64,000 nucleotides of DNA, taken from NCBI GenBank assembly GCA_031274365.1, contig JAISQF010000011.1:124001-188000 (forward strand), given 5' to 3'. Under the pieces are notes generated by a model. It was not told the DNA's origin, searched no databases, and worked only from the letters and a program-made list of their open reading frames with translations. Below, one piece after another: positions 26,266-36,792 of this stretch. Position numbers and translations under genes: made by a program. Each line of letters opens with the position of its first letter. Position 1 is the first letter of the stretch. This DNA comes from Elusimicrobiota bacterium. GTDB taxonomy: Bacteria > Elusimicrobiota > Endomicrobiia > Endomicrobiales > Endomicrobiaceae.

Positions 26266-26453
26266 GATGAGCGCTGTTTTCTTGTTTCAAAGACATTGTT
26301 CTGTATCTGTCAGTGCGTCTGTCAAATCGTAAAGGAAAGATGTCTTTTTATTGCGTATTAAAGTATTCTATATAGTCCGCTTTTAACTTTACATTGACAA
26401 TAATTATAATTTATTTTGATTAAATTTATGGAAAAATATAAAATACTTTGATT

Positions 26454-27371
26454 ATGGAAAAATTAAATAGAAAAGTAATTATTACGGGAGCAACCGGTCT
26501 GATAGGAAAGGAAGCTTTGGAGCCTCTAAAAAAATTAGGTTTTGAAATTTTTGCATTAAGCAGAGATAAAATAAATTCTGATTCCTCTGATCCTGAGCTA
26601 AATTGGATAAAATGCGATTTGTTTGATTCAACGGATATAAAAACAACTTTTGAAAAAATTAAACCTTCATTTCTATTAAACTTTGCTTGGAAAACAACCG
26701 GTGATTATCTTGAATCAAATATCAATTTTGATTTCTTAAAAGTTGGGCTTGATTTATTAAAATATTTTAATGAAAACGGCGGGAAAAGAGCCGTTTTTGC
26801 AGGAACTTGTTTTGAATATCAGTATAAAGAAACGCCGCTAAAAGAAAATGATCCGCCGGATCCGCAGGCAGTTTATTCTAAATGTAAAAATTATTTGAGA
26901 GAGTTGGCGAGTCTTTTTTGTTTGCGAAATAATATAAGTTTCGGCTGGGGAAGAGTTTTTTATGTTTTTGGAATAAACGAGCATATTAAACGTCTGTCCG
27001 CTCATGCCATAGATAATTTTCAAAATGATAAAGAAGTTATTATAAATAATGGAGAATTGATCAGGGCTTATATGTTTAGTAAAGATATTGCAGCGGCTTT
27101 TGTAAAATTTTTAGACAGCTCAGTCGAAGGTATTGTCAATATATGTCCGGGAAACGGTATATCGCTGGGAGATTTTGCTTCAAAAATAGCGCGAAAGCTC
27201 GGCAAAACTAATCTCTTAAAAATTCTAAAAGAGCCCGTCAATCAACCTAAAATTATCGTCGGCGACAATACGCGGTTGATTCAAGAAGTGGAATATAAAT
27301 TGCAATATGATTATGATAAAGCTATCGATGAAATTTTATCTTTTAACAATAAACGGGAGCGTTCAAAATGA
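26454..27371 (+). CDS. NAD-dependent epimerase/dehydratase
   Basis: A 305-residue short-chain dehydrogenase of the extended (sugar nucleotide) type. The N-terminal motif TGATGLIG binds NAD. YSKCKNYLREL holds the YxxxK catalytic pair near residue 143, preceded by FAGTCFEY. It probably modifies a nucleotide sugar for the glycan cluster it opens; the product cannot be predicted. The ATG at 26454 is preferred over a TTG two codons upstream; neither has a strong ribosome site. It overlaps the next gene as ATGA. Confidence 0.85.
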   Translation: MEKLNRKVIITGATGLIGKEALEPLKKLGFEIFALSRDKINSDSSDPELNWIKCDLFDSTDIKTTFEKIKPSFLLNFAWKTTGDYLESNINFDFLKVGLDLLKYFNENGGKRAVFAGTCFEYQYKETPLKENDPPDPQAVYSKCKNYLRELASLFCLRNNISFGWGRVFYVFGINEHIKRLSAHAIDNFQNDKEVIINNGELIRAYMFSKDIAAAFVKFLDSSVEGIVNICPGNGISLGDFASKIARKLGKTNLLKILKEPVNQPKIIVGDNTRLIQEVEYKLQYDYDKAIDEILSFNNKRERSK

Positions 27372-28270
27372 TAAATATAGTTTTTGGATTAGACGACGCT
27401 TATTCAAAATTTTGCGCAGTAACAATAGCCTCTATTTTAACGCATCATAAACAAACTTCCCCTCAAGACAAAATTCATTTCTTTTTTTTAGCGGGAAATA
27501 TTTCCGGCGAGAATCAAAAAAAACTTTTAGAATTACGCGATATACAAGATTTCGATTATACATTTATAAATAATATAGACAATTCCATTTTTAAGGATAT
27601 TCCCATCATTGGTTGGAATAATTACGCATTATGCTATAGACTTTTAATACCGGAAATATTACCCGATGATGTAAAAAAAGCCATATATCTTGACTGCGAT
27701 ATAATTGTAAATATTGATATAAAAGATTTGTGGGATATTGATATAGAAAATTATTTATTAGCGGCAGTTTCTATGAATGCTTCCACAAAACATGAAGGAT
27801 TTGAAGATTCTTATTTTAATTCTGGAGTGATAGTATTTAATAATTGCGCTTTGAGAGAATTTAATTTTGAGAAAAAATGGCGCGATTATGCGGCAAATCT
27901 GCCAAAAGAAACAGTTCTTACTTTTCCAGATCAAGACGTTTTGAATTATACGGTTGGCAAAAACGCTCTCTTACTTCCTCAAAAATATAATATTATTGAC
28001 GAAAATATCGGGAATGCAAAAGGAATAATTCATTATGCGGGAAGAAAACCTTGGGGAATTCTTTGCGCCCATCCTCTAAAAAATTTATATTTTAAGTATG
28101 CAAAAATGACGCCGTATAAAAAAGATTTTAGATTTATAAGAATGCGTTCTTTTTTTAAGATGATTTCGAAAAATCCTTTTTTCTTTTTCAAAAAACATTA
28201 TTTAAGAATAATAAAAAATTTTATTTTATTAAAAATAGGATTTATCAAAAACTCTAATTCCGTCGATTAA
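27368..28270 (+). CDS. Glycosyltransferase family 8 protein
   Basis: A 300-residue GT8 (GT-A fold) enzyme. Family motifs: N-terminal NIVFGLDDAYSKFCAVTIAS, CYRLLIPEILP, the metal-binding DxD in YLDCDIIVN (residues 109-111), FNSGVIVFN, FPDQDVLN and HYAGRKPWG. The family includes LPS galactosyl/glucosyltransferases, which add a sugar from a UDP donor with retention. It is cytoplasmic with a basic, amphipathic C-terminus. It is paralogous to the gene at 32682, so the pathway may add two related sugars. Confidence 0.9.
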   Translation: MINIVFGLDDAYSKFCAVTIASILTHHKQTSPQDKIHFFFLAGNISGENQKKLLELRDIQDFDYTFINNIDNSIFKDIPIIGWNNYALCYRLLIPEILPDDVKKAIYLDCDIIVNIDIKDLWDIDIENYLLAAVSMNASTKHEGFEDSYFNSGVIVFNNCALREFNFEKKWRDYAANLPKETVLTFPDQDVLNYTVGKNALLLPQKYNIIDENIGNAKGIIHYAGRKPWGILCAHPLKNLYFKYAKMTPYKKDFRFIRMRSFFKMISKNPFFFFKKHYLRIIKNFILLKIGFIKNSNSVD

Positions 28271-28275
28271 GCATA

Positions 28276-29586
28276 ATGCAAAAAATAAAAAGTTTTCTAA
28301 AACAATTTTCAAGACACTGGATAACCGCTTTCAGCGCGTGGACAAGCAAAATTATAGTTTCTTTAATACAAATTATAAGTATTAGAGAATTATTACTCTA
28401 TTTGGGCGAGGAAAGATATTCGGTTTATATAATTGCCTTTTCTTTAACGGCTTGGCTGCCTTTAGCGGAATTAAGCGTGGGGACGTCTCTTCAAAATTAC
28501 ATTTCTCAGCATAGAGCGCAAAACAAAAATTATGACAGACACGTCGTTTCGGCTTTCCAAATTGAAATATTTACATTTTTATTTTTTGCAATTGTCATTT
28601 TTTTTCTTTCCCCGTTTGTTCAAAACTTGCTCTTTAGAAAATTTGCATTAGCGGCCGAAATAAAAAATATGCCCATAGTTTTAACAGTATGTTTAGTGTC
28701 TTTGATTTTCATATGCTCGTCAATAATTCATAAGATATATTATGCCGTCCATAAAGGATATATCTCAAATATTCTCCCCGCTTTATCCTCTATAATATCT
28801 ATGATTTTAATTGTGATATTTAGGAAATATCATATAGGCGGACAAAATATAATTTATGCCCTACTTATATTTTTACTTCCGCAGGCGATTGTGTCTTTTA
28901 CATTTTTTGCCGCTTATTTTCGCCGGTATATTTCAAAACTTTTTACATTTGATTTTACCTCAATAAAAGATATTCTTGTCAGAGCGTTTAAACTTCACGG
29001 CGTTGGAATATTTACAACCATATATATTCAGACCGATTATTTAGTAATTTCTCAGACGCTTGCCGGAAATCCAAATGAAATTATAAGCTATAGTATTTTT
29101 ACAAGAGTATTTTTCTTTTTTTCATTTATTTATTCGTCATTTTTAGCTTCAGTATGGCCGGTTATATCGGAGATGTATCATCAAGGACAATTAAAAGAAA
29201 TATGGAAAATGTTAAAACGTTATTTATTATACGGATTTATTTTAATGACTGCGGGAACTGTTGGAGTTATGATTTTTTCAAAAATGATATTTCATATTTT
29301 AGCGCCGGGCGTGGATATTATAAACGCTCATTTGCTTATTTTAATTTTAGGCTTTTATATGATTATAAAAACATGGAACGATACTTTTCACGTTTTTCTT
29401 CAAAGCGTAAATGTCTTGAGAATTTTTTGGATATTTATGCCTTTTGAAATTATTATAAATGCTGCCGCTCAATATTTTTTCTCAAAACAGTTTGGAATAT
29501 ACGGAATCATTTTTGGTTTGATAATATCCGTTTTGGCGACAAGTTTTTGGATATTGCCGATAAAAGCGAGAAAAGTTTTTTCTTGA
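28276..29586 (+). CDS. Polysaccharide flippase (Wzx-like, MOP superfamily)
   Basis: A 436-residue integral membrane protein with about twelve hydrophobic segments. The N-terminal SAWTSKIIVSLIQIISIREL and the general layout are those of O-antigen/oligosaccharide flippases. It would move lipid-linked glycan units made by the surrounding transferases across the inner membrane. Its stop codon lies inside the first unit of a 21-base tandem repeat, so the last residues may have been altered by that duplication. Confidence 0.88.
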   Translation: MQKIKSFLKQFSRHWITAFSAWTSKIIVSLIQIISIRELLLYLGEERYSVYIIAFSLTAWLPLAELSVGTSLQNYISQHRAQNKNYDRHVVSAFQIEIFTFLFFAIVIFFLSPFVQNLLFRKFALAAEIKNMPIVLTVCLVSLIFICSSIIHKIYYAVHKGYISNILPALSSIISMILIVIFRKYHIGGQNIIYALLIFLLPQAIVSFTFFAAYFRRYISKLFTFDFTSIKDILVRAFKLHGVGIFTTIYIQTDYLVISQTLAGNPNEIISYSIFTRVFFFFSFIYSSFLASVWPVISEMYHQGQLKEIWKMLKRYLLYGFILMTAGTVGVMIFSKMIFHILAPGVDIINAHLLILILGFYMIIKTWNDTFHVFLQSVNVLRIFWIFMPFEIIINAAAQYFFSKQFGIYGIIFGLIISVLATSFWILPIKARKVFS

Positions 29587-29687: not shown

Positions 29688-30659
29688 ATGAATAAAATAA
29701 AACGATTGGTTTTTAATGTAATACCGTCAAAATCTCTAAAATGCAAAATAAAATATTTTGGCAGGAGAGATATTTACAAACAAATTTTTATTTATATTAA
29801 AAGTTTTATCAAATACAGATTGTCCGAACGTTCTAAATCAAAAAAAATAAAAACTTTTGAAAATGAACTTTCAATTGCCGCAATCGTTAGAAATGAAGGA
29901 CAATATATTCGGGAATGGATTGAATATCATAAACTAGTCGGAGTTGAGAAATTCTATATTTATGATAACGAAAGCACAGATAATTTGAAAGAAATATTGA
30001 ACCCTTATATTAAGGAAGGAAGCGTCGTATATAAATATTTTCCGGGCAAAGAGAGACAATTACACGCATATCAAGACGCTATAGATAAATACAAATACAA
30101 AACAAAATGGCTTGCTTTAATAGACATAGATGAATTTATAGTTCCCAAGAAATATAAAAAAATAACTGAGTTCTTAAAAGATTTTGAAAGCTATCCTCAG
30201 GTCTTAATAGGCTGGGTTATATACGGCTCGGCAGGACATATAAAAAAGCCCGACGGTTTAGTTATAGAAAATTTTAAATATCATGCTCCCGACGATTATG
30301 TCACTGAAAGCAAAATTATAATAAATCCGCGTATGGCGGGCTGCGCTTTAATTCCTCATTGGAGCGAGCCTTTGGAAGGAAAAGCTGTCGATGAAAATAA
30401 AAATATATTCAAAAGTTATCCTTATAAAGAATTTTATCCCCAAACAAAACCGAAAAATAAAATACAGATAAATCACTATTATTCAAAATCTTGGGAAGGG
30501 TTTTTAGAAAAAGTTTCAAGAGGAAACGCGTATTCTCTAAAAGATCCTATACGCACCAAAACTGATTTTGACGCTTATGACAGAAATGAAGTCTTTGACG
30601 GCATAATGGACGAATATATAGAGCCGATAAAAAAAGCTCTCGCAAAAAAGGAAACTTAA
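29688..30659 (+). CDS. Glycosyltransferase family 92 protein (DUF23-like)
   Basis: A 323-residue protein. AIVRNEGQYIREWIEYHKLV and FYIYDNESTDN (residues about 64-105), WLALIDIDEFI with the DxD-type acidic motif, and NHYYSKSWEGFLEKVSRG are the diagnostic blocks of GT92. Bacterial members occur in surface polysaccharide clusters and their acceptors are mostly unknown. The gene is preceded by 101 non-coding bases and stops directly against the next start codon. Confidence 0.88.
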   Translation: MNKIKRLVFNVIPSKSLKCKIKYFGRRDIYKQIFIYIKSFIKYRLSERSKSKKIKTFENELSIAAIVRNEGQYIREWIEYHKLVGVEKFYIYDNESTDNLKEILNPYIKEGSVVYKYFPGKERQLHAYQDAIDKYKYKTKWLALIDIDEFIVPKKYKKITEFLKDFESYPQVLIGWVIYGSAGHIKKPDGLVIENFKYHAPDDYVTESKIIINPRMAGCALIPHWSEPLEGKAVDENKNIFKSYPYKEFYPQTKPKNKIQINHYYSKSWEGFLEKVSRGNAYSLKDPIRTKTDFDAYDRNEVFDGIMDEYIEPIKKALAKKET

Positions 30660-31757
30660 ATGAAAAAAAAGATTTTAATCAGCGCTTTGAGTTTTCATAT
30701 GGGAGATTTTATATGGGCTGCTTCAGCTTTGGCGATAATAAAAAAAACTTATCCTGAAATAAAAATTACGGTAATTATTCCCAAAAGTCTAAAAGATCTT
30801 GCCATTGACAATCCCGTTATAGACGACGTTATTTTTTCTTTATACAGCTCGCAATCTTTTATCTCAAGACTTAAACAGATTTCTTGGAATCTAAAAAACA
30901 TCCCTCGCATTTTCTTTTCGCGATATGATGCTTGTATAATTTTGGCGCAATCAAAACTGACCGTAATGCTTGCTAAAATATGCCGTATCCCGCGCATAGT
31001 CGGCGCCGATTTATGTTTATCTTCGGACAAAGTTGATGTTTTTTCAAAACATTATACGGATATTATTAAAATGTTTCCAAATCAAACAAAGCTCCATGTT
31101 TCTATGCGTTTTCAAAATATTGTCAAATCTTTTTTTGGAATTTATAATAACGCTTTGCCCGTATTGCCAAGCCCTGACAAATTTGCCGAAAGCGCAAAAA
31201 AATTTATTATTTCCGACGAAAAATTAAATATCGCTTTATGCATGTCGGGTAATAAAAACAAAGGAAATTTAAGTCTTAAAGAATGGAAAATTGAAGATTG
31301 CGCTAAATTTATAAAAACCTTAAACTCTAAATTTAATGCGCGTTTTTATTTTTTAGGAGTTTCTGTGGACGCTCATAAGGTTCAAGAAATTTCATCTTTA
31401 TCTAAAGAATGCGAAGTTCATAATTTATGCGGAAAAACAAGCATAGGCGACGCTTTATGTATTTTGCAAAAAAACGATCTTTGTATATCGGTTGACACCG
31501 GCATTCTTCATTTAGCAGCCGCTTCGAATATTCCCGTTATTGCATTACACGGCCCTACTTCTCCTCAGAGAACGGGAGGAATGTCATGGAAAGTCAAGTC
31601 TCTTTATCATATTGTGGATTGTTCATGCGATTCGGATATTGCAAAAGCTAAAAAGCATTGTCTAATCTCGGAAAAGATAAAATGTATGGAAGCGATAACT
31701 CCCGATGAAATTATGGATCAAGCCGTTAAAATATTAAACAAGCTGGACAAAAAATGA
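30660..31757 (+). CDS. Glycosyltransferase family 9 protein (heptosyltransferase-like)
   Basis: A 365-residue GT-B enzyme. The N-terminal HMGDFIWAASALAIIKK and C-terminal SVDTGILHLAAASNIP plus ALHGPTSPQRTG are the GT9 (ADP-heptose:LPS heptosyltransferase) nucleotide-binding blocks. The presence of gmhA and a heptose adenylyltransferase at 57 kb makes ADP-heptose a plausible donor. It starts right after the GT92 stop and overlaps the GT2 gene by four bases. Confidence 0.9.
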   Translation: MKKKILISALSFHMGDFIWAASALAIIKKTYPEIKITVIIPKSLKDLAIDNPVIDDVIFSLYSSQSFISRLKQISWNLKNIPRIFFSRYDACIILAQSKLTVMLAKICRIPRIVGADLCLSSDKVDVFSKHYTDIIKMFPNQTKLHVSMRFQNIVKSFFGIYNNALPVLPSPDKFAESAKKFIISDEKLNIALCMSGNKNKGNLSLKEWKIEDCAKFIKTLNSKFNARFYFLGVSVDAHKVQEISSLSKECEVHNLCGKTSIGDALCILQKNDLCISVDTGILHLAAASNIPVIALHGPTSPQRTGGMSWKVKSLYHIVDCSCDSDIAKAKKHCLISEKIKCMEAITPDEIMDQAVKILNKLDKK

Positions 31758-32632
31758 TTTGCGCTTTGATAGTTTCTTATAATTCCCGTAAAGTTTTTAG
31801 ATGCTATGAGAGCGTTAAAAATCAAGTTGATTTCACTTTAATTGTGGATAATGGATCAAGAGATAAAGATATTATAGAGGGTTTATTAAAGATTCAAAAA
31901 GAAAATCCAAAATCCAAAATAATATTTAACAATCAAAATTTAGGCATAGCTAAAGCGTTAAATCAAGGGGCTTTATACGCTAAAAATTTGAATTCAAAAT
32001 GGCTTTTAACTTTAGACGACGACAGCCAATTAAATGACGATACGGTTTTTGAAATTATTAAAGATTTTAATAATTTACCGTCGGAGATTAAAGAAAAAAC
32101 GGCGGTTTTAGCCCTAAAATATCAAGAAAGAAATATAGATAATGCGCCAAAAACTCAAAATATAAATATAAGCGTGAAAAGTTTTAAGCCTGTAAAATAT
32201 GCGCTTACTTCCGGCAATTTTATAAAGACAAGCGTTTTTGATTGCGGTATTTCTTTTGATGAAAAATTATTTATAGATCAAGTTGATAATGATTTTGATT
32301 TTACTATAAGAAAGAAAGGATTTATAATTTTAGAATCTCAAAAACGTTATATCGTCCACGAGCTTGGATTGTCGCAAAAAAAACGCGGTTTTATAATAAA
32401 AAATTATTCTCCTATTCGCAGATATTATCTTTCAAGAAATTGTATTTATATATTAAAGCGATATTTGTTTTTTGATTTTTTGGGAGTTTCAAGAATTTTT
32501 ATAGGAGCAATTTTTGGAGGAATATTCAAAATAACATTTTTTGAAAAACAAAAATTTGAAAAATATAAATATATTTGTTTTGGAATTATCGACGCAATAT
32601 TTAATAAGATGGGAAAAAAATATAATCCTTAA
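31754..32632 (+). CDS. Glycosyltransferase family 2 protein
   Basis: A 292-residue GT-A enzyme: ALIVSYNSRK at the N-terminus, IVDNGSRD, NNQNLGIAKALNQGA and LTLDDDSQL with the DxD motif near residue 94. The closest subfamily by motif is the rhamnosyltransferase-like GT2 group of O-antigen clusters. Donor and acceptor are not predictable. The overlapping start (ATGA) suggests coupling with the heptosyltransferase-like gene. Confidence 0.88.
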   Translation: MICALIVSYNSRKVFRCYESVKNQVDFTLIVDNGSRDKDIIEGLLKIQKENPKSKIIFNNQNLGIAKALNQGALYAKNLNSKWLLTLDDDSQLNDDTVFEIIKDFNNLPSEIKEKTAVLALKYQERNIDNAPKTQNINISVKSFKPVKYALTSGNFIKTSVFDCGISFDEKLFIDQVDNDFDFTIRKKGFIILESQKRYIVHELGLSQKKRGFIIKNYSPIRRYYLSRNCIYILKRYLFFDFLGVSRIFIGAIFGGIFKITFFEKQKFEKYKYICFGIIDAIFNKMGKKYNP

Positions 32633-32681: not shown

Positions 32682-33557
32682 ATGATAAATGTGGCGTTTG
32701 GATTTAACGACGCTTATGCAAAATTTTGCGGCGTAACGGTCGCGTCAATTCTTGCAAATCATAAAATTTTATCACCTGTTGATAAACTTAATTTTTTCTT
32801 TTTGGGAAATATTTCAAAAGAAAATAAAGAGAAAATGTTTGAGTTGAAAAAAATTCAAGACTGCCAAATGTCTTTTATAAATATGGACGATAATTTGTTT
32901 AAGGATTTGCCTATGGGAACTTGGGATTATTCAACTTGCTACAGACTTTTAATTCCGGAAGTTTTGCCGGCGGGCGAAAAAAAAGTTATCTATTTGGACT
33001 GCGATATAATTCTAAACAGAGATATAAAAGAATTTTGGGACATAAATATCGACGGATATTATCTTAGCGCTTTATACGGAAAACTTTCCCCTTACGACGA
33101 TAATGAAATGTATTTTAACGCGGGAGTTATGCTTTTGAATTTGCAGACATTGAGAGATTTTAATTATAAAGATAAGTGGAGAGATTTTGCAAAACATAAC
33201 GTTAATCCCGATAGATTTATGTTTCCCGATCAAGATATTTTAAACGGAATTATAAAAGATAAAATTCTGCCGCTTGACTCAAAATTTAATATGCTTATGT
33301 CTCATTTTTCGGATTTTAAAGGTCAAATTGAAGATATAGTTGTAATTCATTTGGGCGGGTTTAAGCCTTGGCAGCCGACTTGTAAACATCCGCTAAAAGA
33401 AATGTATTTTATTTATGCGGCTATGGTTCCTTGGAAAATAAAAAGAGAAAGTTATTTAGTTTATTCTTTGAAATTCTTTAAAAAACATCCTCTTTTCTTT
33501 TTGCAGGCAAAGTATTGGAAAATTCTAAAGAATTTGTTTTTTCACAAAAATAACTGA
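32682..33557 (+). CDS. Glycosyltransferase family 8 protein (second paralogue)
   Basis: A 291-residue GT8 enzyme sharing all blocks with the gene at 27368: NVAFGFNDAYAKFCGVTVAS, CYRLLIPEVLP, YLDCDII with DxD at 106-108, FNAGVMLLN, FPDQDILNG, HLGGFKPWQ. The two copies differ at roughly half of positions, so this is an old duplication. A strong ribosome site (AAGGAGACATGA) precedes the ATG. It likely adds a hexose to the growing glycan. Confidence 0.9.
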   Translation: MINVAFGFNDAYAKFCGVTVASILANHKILSPVDKLNFFFLGNISKENKEKMFELKKIQDCQMSFINMDDNLFKDLPMGTWDYSTCYRLLIPEVLPAGEKKVIYLDCDIILNRDIKEFWDINIDGYYLSALYGKLSPYDDNEMYFNAGVMLLNLQTLRDFNYKDKWRDFAKHNVNPDRFMFPDQDILNGIIKDKILPLDSKFNMLMSHFSDFKGQIEDIVVIHLGGFKPWQPTCKHPLKEMYFIYAAMVPWKIKRESYLVYSLKFFKKHPLFFLQAKYWKILKNLFFHKNN

Positions 33558-33639: not shown

Positions 33640-34590
33640 ATGAACGAACTTTTTTATAAAAGAAATTTAAGGAAATATGCATTGCACAGTCTTCAAAAAG
33701 AATATTGGACGGAGAGATATAAAAAAACTCCTTTGAATATCTTAAAATTTATTTTAAGAGTTGCGAGATTAAAACTTGAATTTTACTTTTTTAAAAGAAT
33801 TTATATTCCTTATATTGAAATAGCAATCACCACGAGATGCTCGTTAAAATGCAAATATTGTTCCAATTATATAAATACTGTGGAGGAAAAATATCAGCAT
33901 TCCTTAACTTTCGAGGAATTTAAGACATATATTGATAATTTGCTTTGCAATGTAAGCAAACTTCACGCTCTAAAAATTTTTGGAGGAGAGCCGTTATTAA
34001 ATAAAGATCTGGGTAAAATATTGCAAAATGTTTTGGATAACAAAAAAATTTCTTTTGTCTATCTTACCACTAATGGAACGATAGATATTTCAGAAAATCT
34101 TATATCCATTATGAAACGCTATCCTAAAAAAATATATGTTGACGTTTCAAATTATACTCTGAACAAAGATTTGGCGCCAAGATTAAAAACTATAGATATT
34201 CTTAATAAATGCAAACAAAATAATATTTTAACAGTTTTTAACGAAAGCGGAATGTGGACTAAAACTTCGGCAATTAAATGCTACAATCGCTCTCATAAAG
34301 AAATAAGAGATTATTTTTTGAAATGCAAATTAACCTGCATTCATATTTTGAAAGGCAAATTATATCCATGCCCTAAAGCCGCAATATTTGATTTAAGAAA
34401 TCTTTACAATACTACCCCTTCCCCCCATTCGCATATTGTTAAAGATAAAGAGTATATAGATTTGTCCGTGCCTGTAAAAAGAGAACAGTTAATAAAATTT
34501 TATTCGAATGATTATTATTTAGCCTGCGATTTTTGCTCTATAATAGAAGATGATAAGAAAGATAAAATTATTCCAGCCATTCAGGAATAA
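33640..34590 (+). CDS. Radical SAM protein with C-terminal cysteine cluster (copy A)
   Basis: A 316-residue radical SAM enzyme: TTRCSLKCKYCSN gives CxxxCxxC at Cys67/71/74, and IFGGEPLLNKDL is the GGEP SAM-binding strand. The C-terminal third has further cysteines (KCKLTCIHIL, LYPCPKAA, ACDFCS) in a SPASM-like arrangement that could hold a second Fe-S cluster. The family is found in surface-polysaccharide loci, but its substrate is not known. A close paralogue lies at 35836, with a PLP enzyme between. A basic hydrophobic N-terminus (about 30-55) could associate with the membrane. Confidence 0.87.
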   Translation: MNELFYKRNLRKYALHSLQKEYWTERYKKTPLNILKFILRVARLKLEFYFFKRIYIPYIEIAITTRCSLKCKYCSNYINTVEEKYQHSLTFEEFKTYIDNLLCNVSKLHALKIFGGEPLLNKDLGKILQNVLDNKKISFVYLTTNGTIDISENLISIMKRYPKKIYVDVSNYTLNKDLAPRLKTIDILNKCKQNNILTVFNESGMWTKTSAIKCYNRSHKEIRDYFLKCKLTCIHILKGKLYPCPKAAIFDLRNLYNTTPSPHSHIVKDKEYIDLSVPVKREQLIKFYSNDYYLACDFCSIIEDDKKDKIIPAIQE

Positions 34591-34606
34591 ATATAGGGAG
34601 AAATGA

Positions 34607-35785
34607 ATGAGAAAAAATGTAAAAAAAGATAATTTACGATCCGACACTCTGTGCATACACGGCGGAAACAGCGAATGTGAAAATACGGGCGCCGTGAATA
34701 TTCCTATTTATCAAGCCGTCACTTTTCGGCAATCCGAAATGGGAAAATTTAAATTTGAATATGGCCGCACGGGAAATCCCACAAGACAAGCCCTCGAACG
34801 TCTCAGCGCCGATTTAGAAGGCGCCGCCGCAGGGTTTGCTTTTGCTTCCGGACTTAGCGCCATTACAACTATTTTGCTTATGTTTAAGTCGGGAGATAAA
34901 ATTCTCCTTTCTCAAGATATTTACGGCGGAACTTTTAGAATTTTTAACGATGTTTTTATCAACTTCAATCTTAAATATGAAATTGTGGACATTTGCAATT
35001 TAGATTTCGTCAGAGAAAAATTTGCAAAAGATAAAAATATAAAAGCCGTCATAGCGGAATCGCCGACAAATCCTTTGCTTAATATTATTGATATTGCCGA
35101 GTTGGCAAAAATAGCAAAAAGTTATGGGGCTTTGACGATTATAGATAATACTTTTATGTCGCCTTATCTTCAAAGACCTCTTGATTTGGGCGCTGATATT
35201 TCCGTCCACAGCGCGACAAAATATCTTGGAGGACACAGCGATGTTTTGGGCGGACTTGTAATGGTTAAAGATAAATCTCTGTCTGAAAAAATAGCTTTTT
35301 TGCAAAATTCAACAGGAGCTGTTTTGCAGCCTTTTGATTGTTTTCTTTTGATGCGAGGTATAAAAACGCTTTCAGTTAGAATGGACAGGCATCTTCAAAA
35401 TGCTCAATTTTTAGCCGAGTTTTTAGATTCGATAGACGCCGTTGAAGAAGTTTTTTATTGCGGGTTAAAAAATAATAAAGGATATGAGCTAAACAAAAAA
35501 CAAGCCAAAGGCGCGGGCGCGATAATTTCTTTTAAAATATCCCCTCAATATGATATTAATAAATTTTTTAAGAGTTTGAATATTATCGCTTTTGCCGAGA
35601 GTCTTGGCGGAGTTGAATCTTTAATTTGTCATCCTTCCACAATGACTCATGCCGGCATTCCAAAAAATATTCGCGAGCTTATCGGAATTACCGACAATTT
35701 AATTCGCTTATCGGTCGGAATAGAAAATAAAGAGGACTTAAAAAATGATATTTTACAGGCTTTGGAAAAATCTAAAGAGAAATAA
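34607..35785 (+). CDS. Cys/Met-metabolism PLP-dependent enzyme (cystathionine gamma-synthase/lyase family)
   Basis: A 392-residue fold-type I PLP enzyme: FEYGRTGNPTRQALE, SGLSAITTILLMF, IDNTFMSPYLQRPL and SVHSATKYLGGHSDVLGG, with the PLP lysine in the last. The family covers cystathionine gamma-synthase, cystathionine beta/gamma-lyase, methionine gamma-lyase and O-acylhomoserine sulfhydrylase; the length of about 390 argues against the last. Which reaction it performs cannot be told from motifs. It sits between two radical SAM paralogues at the end of a glycan cluster, which is unexpected for a methionine-pathway gene. Confidence 0.9.
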   Translation: MRKNVKKDNLRSDTLCIHGGNSECENTGAVNIPIYQAVTFRQSEMGKFKFEYGRTGNPTRQALERLSADLEGAAAGFAFASGLSAITTILLMFKSGDKILLSQDIYGGTFRIFNDVFINFNLKYEIVDICNLDFVREKFAKDKNIKAVIAESPTNPLLNIIDIAELAKIAKSYGALTIIDNTFMSPYLQRPLDLGADISVHSATKYLGGHSDVLGGLVMVKDKSLSEKIAFLQNSTGAVLQPFDCFLLMRGIKTLSVRMDRHLQNAQFLAEFLDSIDAVEEVFYCGLKNNKGYELNKKQAKGAGAIISFKISPQYDINKFFKSLNIIAFAESLGGVESLICHPSTMTHAGIPKNIRELIGITDNLIRLSVGIENKEDLKNDILQALEKSKEK

Positions 35786-35835
35786 ATATTGTGGTGATAT
35801 TTTCTTATGCTATAATTTGAATTAAAGGAGAGAAA

Positions 35836-36792
35836 ATGAATTTATTATTTTATAAAAGAAATCTAAAGAGATATGTTTTACAGACCATTCCAAAAAATAA
35901 AGAAACTTTTTTAGACGCGTTAAAATATAAATTAAAATTTATTTTAAGACTTGCCGCGTTGACATTTGAATTTTATTTCTTAAAGAGAATTTATATTCCT
36001 TATATTGAAGTGGCAATCACCACAAGATGCTCGTTAAAATGCAAGTATTGCGCTAATTATATAAACACCGTGGAGGAAAAATATCAGCATTCTTTAACAT
36101 CTGATGAATTCAAAACATATCTGGACAATTTGCTTTGCAATGTAAGCAAACTTGATTTTCTAAAAATTTTTGGAGGAGAGCCGCTGCTAAATAAAGATTT
36201 GGATAAAATTTTGCAAATCGCTTTGGATAATAAAAAAATCTCAGTTGTTTGGCTTACCACCAGCGGAACGATAGATATTTCCGATAATCTTATATCTATT
36301 ATGAAACGTTATCCCGGGAAAATATACGTCAATATTTCAAACTATACCTTAAACAAAGATTTGGCGCCGAGACTAAAAACTCAAGCTATACTATACAAAT
36401 GCAAACAAAACGGTATTTTGACAAAACTCGACGAAAGCGGAGCATTATGGAATAAAACTTCAGAAATTAAATATCATAGCCGCTCGCCGCAAGCAAATAG
36501 AAATTATTTTCTAAAATGCAAAATACATTGTATTCATATTTTGAATGGCAAATTATATCCATGCCCTAAAGCCGCAATATTTGATTTAAGAAATATTTAC
36601 AACACTATGCTGCCGGATGAATTTTCAGATATGCAAATTATTAAAGATAAAGAGTATATAGATTTATCCGCGCCTGTAGAAAAAGAGCAGCTAATAAAAT
36701 TCTATTCAAATGCCGATTATCTGGCTTGCAATTTTTGCTCGCAAGTAGAGGACGAAAAGAAAGAAAAAGTTATTCCCGCTATTCAGGAATAA
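35836..36792 (+). CDS. Radical SAM protein with C-terminal cysteine cluster (copy B)
   Basis: A 318-residue paralogue of the gene at 33640, with the same blocks: TTRCSLKCKYCAN (Cys65/69/72), IFGGEPLLNKDL, KCKIHCIHIL, LYPCPKAAIFDLRN and ACNFCS. The two proteins are identical over long runs, such as NYINTVEEKYQHSLT, but differ in the N-terminal 45 residues and around 205-235. This suggests duplication followed by change of substrate contact regions. A ribosome site AAAGGAG precedes the ATG. Substrate unknown. Confidence 0.87.
   Translation: MNLLFYKRNLKRYVLQTIPKNKETFLDALKYKLKFILRLAALTFEFYFLKRIYIPYIEVAITTRCSLKCKYCANYINTVEEKYQHSLTSDEFKTYLDNLLCNVSKLDFLKIFGGEPLLNKDLDKILQIALDNKKISVVWLTTSGTIDISDNLISIMKRYPGKIYVNISNYTLNKDLAPRLKTQAILYKCKQNGILTKLDESGALWNKTSEIKYHSRSPQANRNYFLKCKIHCIHILNGKLYPCPKAAIFDLRNIYNTMLPDEFSDMQIIKDKEYIDLSAPVEKEQLIKFYSNADYLACNFCSQVEDEKKEKVIPAIQE

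Follow-up and report, generated by a model that had tools for sequence, protein, structure and literature searches.

Two paralogous radical SAM genes at the end of a surface-glycan cluster in an Elusimicrobiota bacterium probably encode an uncharacterized glycan-cluster family of the sugar-oxidizing type, and the gene for a PLP enzyme that lies between them is most likely a bystander. An earlier note on this DNA had proposed that the three genes together make or attach a sulfur- or amino-acid-derived decoration of a surface glycan. The link of the radical SAM genes to glycan genes is supported across the family, but a pathway formed by the trio as a unit is not. The account favored here, which is held with fair confidence, is that the radical SAM pair oxidizes or epimerizes sugars of the surface glycan and that the PLP enzyme serves the sulfur amino acid metabolism of the whole cell.

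Organization of the locus

The window, a stretch of 64,000 nucleotides, corresponds to C4:124001-188000 of a 1.04-Mb genome that is 59% complete and appears to belong to "Candidatus Ectomicrobium" (Elusimicrobiota, Endomicrobiaceae), the genus being taken from a same-genus relative, "Candidatus Ectomicrobium neotermitis" (G001). Ectomicrobium is represented here by these two genomes, which come from two species; members of the genus associate with termite gut flagellates (PMC11257099). The open reading frames of the trio lie exactly where the earlier note had placed them, all on the + strand (Table 1), and are separated by gaps of 16 bp (rSAM-A to the PLP gene) and 50 bp (the PLP gene to rSAM-B). 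They close a cluster of, in order, epimerase, GT8, flippase-like, GT92, GT9, GT2, and GT8 genes, and the five glycosyltransferases and the flippase described earlier were thus recovered, the flippase by sub-threshold Pfam matches. Genes encoding a DNA alkylation repair protein, an HD-domain protein, and, by sequence reading, an NAD synthetase-like protein follow on the 3' side of rSAM-B. This downstream gene order is the same in the Ectomicrobium relative (L065), where a GT8 gene also adjoins the radical SAM gene. The absence of methionine pathway genes from the surroundings was likewise borne out, no other methionine or cysteine genes being adjacent to the trio in the window. A scan of the locus for promoters and terminators gave motif counts at or below those of shuffled sequences.

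Table 1. Features of the radical SAM-PLP locus, in window coordinates
Feature	Coordinates	Strand	Length	Basis
NAD-dependent sugar epimerase/dehydratase	26448..27371	+		Profile matches
GT8 glycosyltransferase, between epimerase and flippase-like genes	27368..28270	+		Pfam
Flippase-like membrane protein	28276..29586	+		MatE/Polysacc_synt, Pfam matches sub-threshold only
GT92 glycosyltransferase	29688..30659	+		Pfam
GT9 glycosyltransferase, heptosyltransferase family	30660..31757	+		Profile matches
GT2 glycosyltransferase, rhamnosyltransferase-like	31754..32632	+		Profile matches
GT8 glycosyltransferase, directly upstream of rSAM-A, end of glycan cluster	32682..33557	+		Glyco_transf_8 2.6e-37
rSAM-A radical SAM protein	33640..34590	+	316 aa	ORF, Pfam, alignments, model
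PLP enzyme, Cys/Met family	34607..35785	+	392 aa	ORF, Pfam, orthologue neighborhoods
rSAM-B, rSAM-A paralogue	35836..36792	+	318 aa	ORF, Pfam, dS/dN

A twitch-type radical SAM family

Both radical SAM proteins contain the Radical_SAM domain (PF04055; E-values of 2.3e-14 and 5.1e-14) and the CX3CX2C motif (C67, C71, and C74), which place them in the superfamily. The motif is invariant in an alignment of 18 homologs, across which a GGE motif is also kept. The auxiliary cysteines C229, C244, C296, and C299 are invariant in the same alignment and C233 is nearly so. These cysteines had been described earlier as SPASM-like, an assignment that was ruled out, as the SPASM set is longer and holds two clusters, and no NCBIfam SPASM model among the matches listed reached its cut-off. 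Judged from its sequence and its predicted structure, rSAM-A instead appears to have a twitch domain, with a short C-terminal cysteine set for one cluster and a twitch-type fold. The pair constitutes an uncurated family with a twitch-type rather than a SPASM domain; the best NCBIfam model among the matches listed was MoaA, at 56 of 284 bits, and none came near its cut-off. Literature searches turned up no account of the family in a glycan-cluster setting, although on a Brachyspira plasmid a gene for a radical SAM protein is noted next to one for a glycosyltransferase (PMC4267127).

The AlphaFold model of rSAM-A (pLDDT of 88 and pTM of 0.88) was compared with the PDB using Foldseek, and structures of SpeY filled the first four places (E of ~1e-11), aligning over ~260 columns with a TM score of ~0.6 and ~20% identity. 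SpeY is a twitch radical SAM dehydrogenase that acts in spectinomycin biosynthesis. The runners-up lay far behind (MoaA at 6e-6 and BtrN at 5.5e-5) and included anSME, SuiB, the blasticidin enzyme BlsE, and DesII. Searched against PDB sequences, the profile built from the 18 homologs likewise ranked SpeY first (7e-16). C229 and C244 align to SpeY cysteines in the profile alignment, which stops short of the C-terminal CX2C of the radical SAM family; C233 has no SpeY counterpart. rSAM-A resembles SpeY (PDB 7wzv, 7wzx, and 7x0b) in whole-chain fold, in profile, and in two cysteines but differs in lying within gut-bacterial surface-glycan clusters rather than in an antibiotic pathway. The TM score is no higher than ~0.6 at this identity, and proteins with a fold like that of SpeY could also carry out radical chemistry of another kind. 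BtrN, the 2-deoxy-scyllo-inosamine dehydrogenase (PDB 4m7s and 4m7t), has the twitch class in common with the pair, but the match is much weaker, the protein is shorter, and its substrate is an aminocyclitol. The single auxiliary cluster of BtrN has four cysteine ligands and goes with two-electron oxidation, and that of MoaA is bound by three cysteines, with one iron site left open (PMC9012708); the four invariant cysteines of the present family suggest a cluster of the BtrN kind.

In the proposed mechanism, rSAM-A and rSAM-B would be duplicate enzymes serving the surface-glycan cluster, both of them active, in which the 5'-deoxyadenosyl radical would abstract hydrogen at a carbinol carbon, the substrate being a sugar that may be nucleotide linked, lipid linked, or already within the glycan. 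The single four-cysteine auxiliary [4Fe-4S] cluster would then accept the second electron to give a keto sugar, as in the dehydrogenases SpeY and BtrN, or the hydrogen would be returned instead to give an epimer. Fold alone does not fix the chemistry, and the presence of MoaA, BlsE, and DesII in the fold search leaves room for a different radical reaction in the glycan cluster, such as dehydration, rearrangement, C-C bond formation, or decarboxylation of a sugar. Such a reaction is unlikely but deserves serious consideration; it is disfavored by the lead of SpeY over all other fold matches and by the cysteine count, which is that of the oxidizing BtrN cluster and not that of MoaA.

A scan of genome contigs found close relatives of the pair in Endomicrobiaceae, Spirochaetaceae, and Gastranaerophilales. 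Within Endomicrobiaceae, for which 77 genomes were covered, only Ectomicrobium and one other genus carry the close family, and a wider profile gave about 28 matches at E <= 1e-38 in 341 genomes of the phylum. At 18 Elusimicrobiota loci holding distant members, the 64 genes within two places of the radical SAM gene included 21 GT2, 5 GT9, and 4 GT8 genes and two UDP-galactopyranose mutases, and flippases also recur beside the family. Some loci were without glycan neighbors, several of these being on very short contigs (L155-L158). Because the family recurs beside GT2, GT8, GT9, and flippase genes and its best structural match is SpeY, the assignment of the radical SAM genes to surface-glycan gene clusters is supported.

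Other members of the family vary in context and length. One distant member lies beside SIS-domain, HAD-hydrolase, and transaldolase-like genes (L155:401-3274), where heptose precursor synthesis is possible. Longer members carry an N-terminal Rossmann-like extension (L159:4976-6154, L160:4772-6013, and L088:298-1563), which in the L159 and L160 members, from G328 and G221, bears a weak, sub-cut-off likeness to the C-methyltransferase C-terminal domain (5.8e-5 and 0.025). A further paralogue on contig C20 of the window's own genome (L078:10590-11567) clusters with those of Spirochaetaceae MAGs (L083 and L084; support of 99/98), one of which shares its sample series with the Ectomicrobium relative, and this grouping points to transfer between gut bacteria.

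Lineage-specific duplication of the radical SAM genes

rSAM-A and rSAM-B are 73% identical in protein and 80% identical in DNA sequence, with a dS of 0.84 and a dN of 0.15. The two copies in the relative have a dS of 0.43 and form a 100/100 clade in the protein tree, in which the A/B fork is without resolution, and dS between the two Ectomicrobium genomes is saturated. The second copy of the relative follows GT2, unlike that of the window, which follows the PLP gene; the contig of the relative ends at this copy, and its place before GT8 is deduced. The dS values, the clade formed by the copies of the relative, and the differing position of the second copy indicate that radical SAM copies are gained and lost within lineages through duplication or homogenization, the duplicates having arisen, or been homogenized, separately in each species. 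A degenerate third copy lies just upstream of the intact second copy in the relative (L066:4741-5029).

The earlier note had taken the divergence of the N terminus and of residues ~205 to 235 as a sign of specialized contact regions after duplication. These are indeed among the more divergent parts, with nucleotide identities of 73% at the N terminus and 72% over residues ~200 to 240 compared with 77 to 97% over most of the rest, but the ~205 to 235 stretch also varies between further members of the family and is no mark of copy-specific contact regions. dN is lower than dS in every segment compared, with no sign of positive selection, and these values together with the tree speak against specialized A and B paralogues and show lineage-specific duplication.

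Identity and origin of the PLP enzyme

The PLP protein matches Cys_Met_Meta_PP (PF01053, 7.4e-140) over its full length (residues 13 to 387), confirming its placement in the trans-sulfuration family. It contains the PLP lysine motif SATKYLGGH and two specificity-glutamate motifs, FEYGRTGNPT and FAESLGGVE, which, matched by motif and not by superposition, supply the equivalent of human Glu59 and Glu339, which are proposed to determine specificity for gamma-elimination (PMC6073527). The closest PDB entry is the bifunctional cystathionine gamma-lyase/homocysteine desulfhydrase 7d7o, and the cystathionine gamma-synthase 4l0o was also matched; both match at full length and have the two glutamate motifs and the PLP lysine in common with the PLP protein. 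It differs from these types in scoring below the cut-offs of NF005810 (cystathionine gamma-lyase/homocysteine desulfhydrase; 484.4 of 594) and NF004821 (cystathionine gamma-synthase; 485 of 642), reaching no NCBIfam equivalog cut-off among the matches listed, and in that no dedicated CBS/MccA-like partner was found in its own, incomplete genome. The sequence points to an ordinary protein of the cystathionine gamma-lyase/gamma-synthase type, with lyase and synthase not separated by the NCBIfam scores. Methionine gamma-lyase or cystathionine beta-lyase was judged unlikely from the AESLGG motif.

Orthologues with 61 to 65% identity are present in six other Endomicrobiaceae genomes. Five of the six lie in nitrogenase-like clusters with CysK-, NifB-, NifX-, and NifH-like genes and the sixth lies beside aroC, while sister and outgroup homologs adjoin CBS-, MetX-like, and O-acetylhomoserine sulfhydrylase genes; some of these neighbors were named by visual inspection of their sequences. 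In the tree, the Ectomicrobium PLP proteins fall inside a 100/100 clade of Endomicrobiaceae orthologues, all members of which keep EYGR or DYGR together with AESLGG. This membership in a sulfur amino acid orthologue group, with both cystathionine gamma-lyase glutamates, speaks against a glycan-pathway enzyme, and the PLP enzyme would act in general sulfur amino acid metabolism with no step in the glycan pathway.

The pieces of the nitrogenase-like cluster found in Ectomicrobium (L105 and L106) are without the PLP gene and the partner CysK gene that other genera keep there, and the only CysK detected in Ectomicrobium, in an incomplete genome, is a general one. The context of the orthologues, nitrogenase-like genes beside sulfur genes, is like that of the group IV nitrogenase-like sulfur locus IsrBHDK of Rhodobacter capsulatus (PMC11423573), but the PLP gene of the window now lies outside any cluster of this kind. 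The group IV nitrogenase-like clusters of other Endomicrobiaceae (L069 and L071-L074) and of Ectomicrobium (L105 and L106) are interleaved with genes for cystathionine gamma-lyase-type proteins, CysK, O-acetylhomoserine sulfhydrylase, and a methionine-type transporter, which suggests a sulfur role for these clusters, either in addition to the nitrogen fixation reported for them or in its place. On contig C17 of the window's own genome, an O-acetylhomoserine sulfhydrylase (residues ~267 to 693) has a fused N-terminal portion whose 4Fe-4S dicluster matches are weak (L077:7885-9972); the copy in the relative is unfused (L106:3912-5204).

Linkage of the PLP and radical SAM genes

The adjacency of the trio is real, and the order GT8-rSAM-PLP is kept in both Ectomicrobium genomes, whose PLP proteins are 77% identical; one shared ancestral arrangement explains it. 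The earlier note had named linkage in relatives as a point on which its proposal would turn, and there the proposal failed. A PLP gene was beside the radical SAM gene at none of 18 extended-family loci, at none of five spirochaete and Gastranaerophilales loci, and at none of the other Ectomicrobium and Endomicrobiaceae loci (L067, L068, L078, and L079), so that the loci examined outside Ectomicrobium gave no linked case and no conserved rSAM-PLP-rSAM cassette beyond one genus. Since the link occurs only in the two Ectomicrobium genomes, where the nitrogenase-like pieces are without the PLP gene, the simplest explanation is that this gene was relocated into the glycan locus in the Ectomicrobium lineage rather than recruited to it. 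Some functional connection inside the genus may nevertheless exist, because the adjacency has been kept despite strong divergence and the short gaps suggest cotranscription.

The PLP gene might instead have been placed to serve SAM and methionine turnover by supplying homocysteine, cysteine, or sulfide for iron-sulfur and SAM enzymes, which is improbable. Another rSAM/GT92/GT9 locus of the same genome does lie beside metK and ahcY (L079), as does L067, but the pairing of metK with ahcY is ancient in the family, and in several genera glycan genes come after it with no radical SAM gene in the available flanks (L108-L111); this proximity is therefore an inherited location. The supply argument drawn from L079 was dropped on these grounds. 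Radical SAM dehydrogenases, moreover, release methionine, which cystathionine gamma-lyase does not recycle. The pair is conserved across L079:10697-15177 and L108-L112, and in Ectomicrobium a GT92 gene lies between its two genes and a radical SAM gene after them.

A single pathway formed by the trio is very improbable. In it, one radical SAM enzyme would generate a keto sugar or one activated in another way, the PLP enzyme would provide or attach to the glycan a group derived from cysteine, homocysteine, or sulfide, and the second radical SAM enzyme would act at another position. The shared strand, the short gaps, and the conserved gene order are what such a pathway would predict, but the PLP protein shares its specificity motifs with orthologues outside any glycan context, linkage ends at the genus, the second radical SAM gene lies between GT2 and GT8 in the relative and after the PLP gene in the window, and no transferase specific to such a group was seen. 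Also very improbable is a mixed case in which the SpeY-like family oxidizes surface-glycan sugars in Elusimicrobiota and other gut bacteria and the PLP enzyme of Ectomicrobium has been recruited to place a group derived from sulfur or an amino acid on the oxidized carbon. Very little weight is given to radical SAM proteins that are RiPP-type peptide maturases rather than sugar enzymes, a reading suggested by many weak NCBIfam matches over the radical SAM core but opposed by the lack of a convincing small precursor ORF downstream, the twitch rather than SPASM cysteine set, the best whole-chain match to SpeY, and the family-wide glycosyltransferase neighbors.

Implications

Adjacency alone should not make the PLP gene part of a novel pathway. 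If the account favored here holds for the radical SAM pair, twitch radical SAM dehydrogenases, which have been characterized in antibiotic pathways, also act on the surface glycans of gut bacteria, through a family that no curated model names. Ectomicrobium would then carry oxidized or epimerized surface sugars that may meet the protist host.
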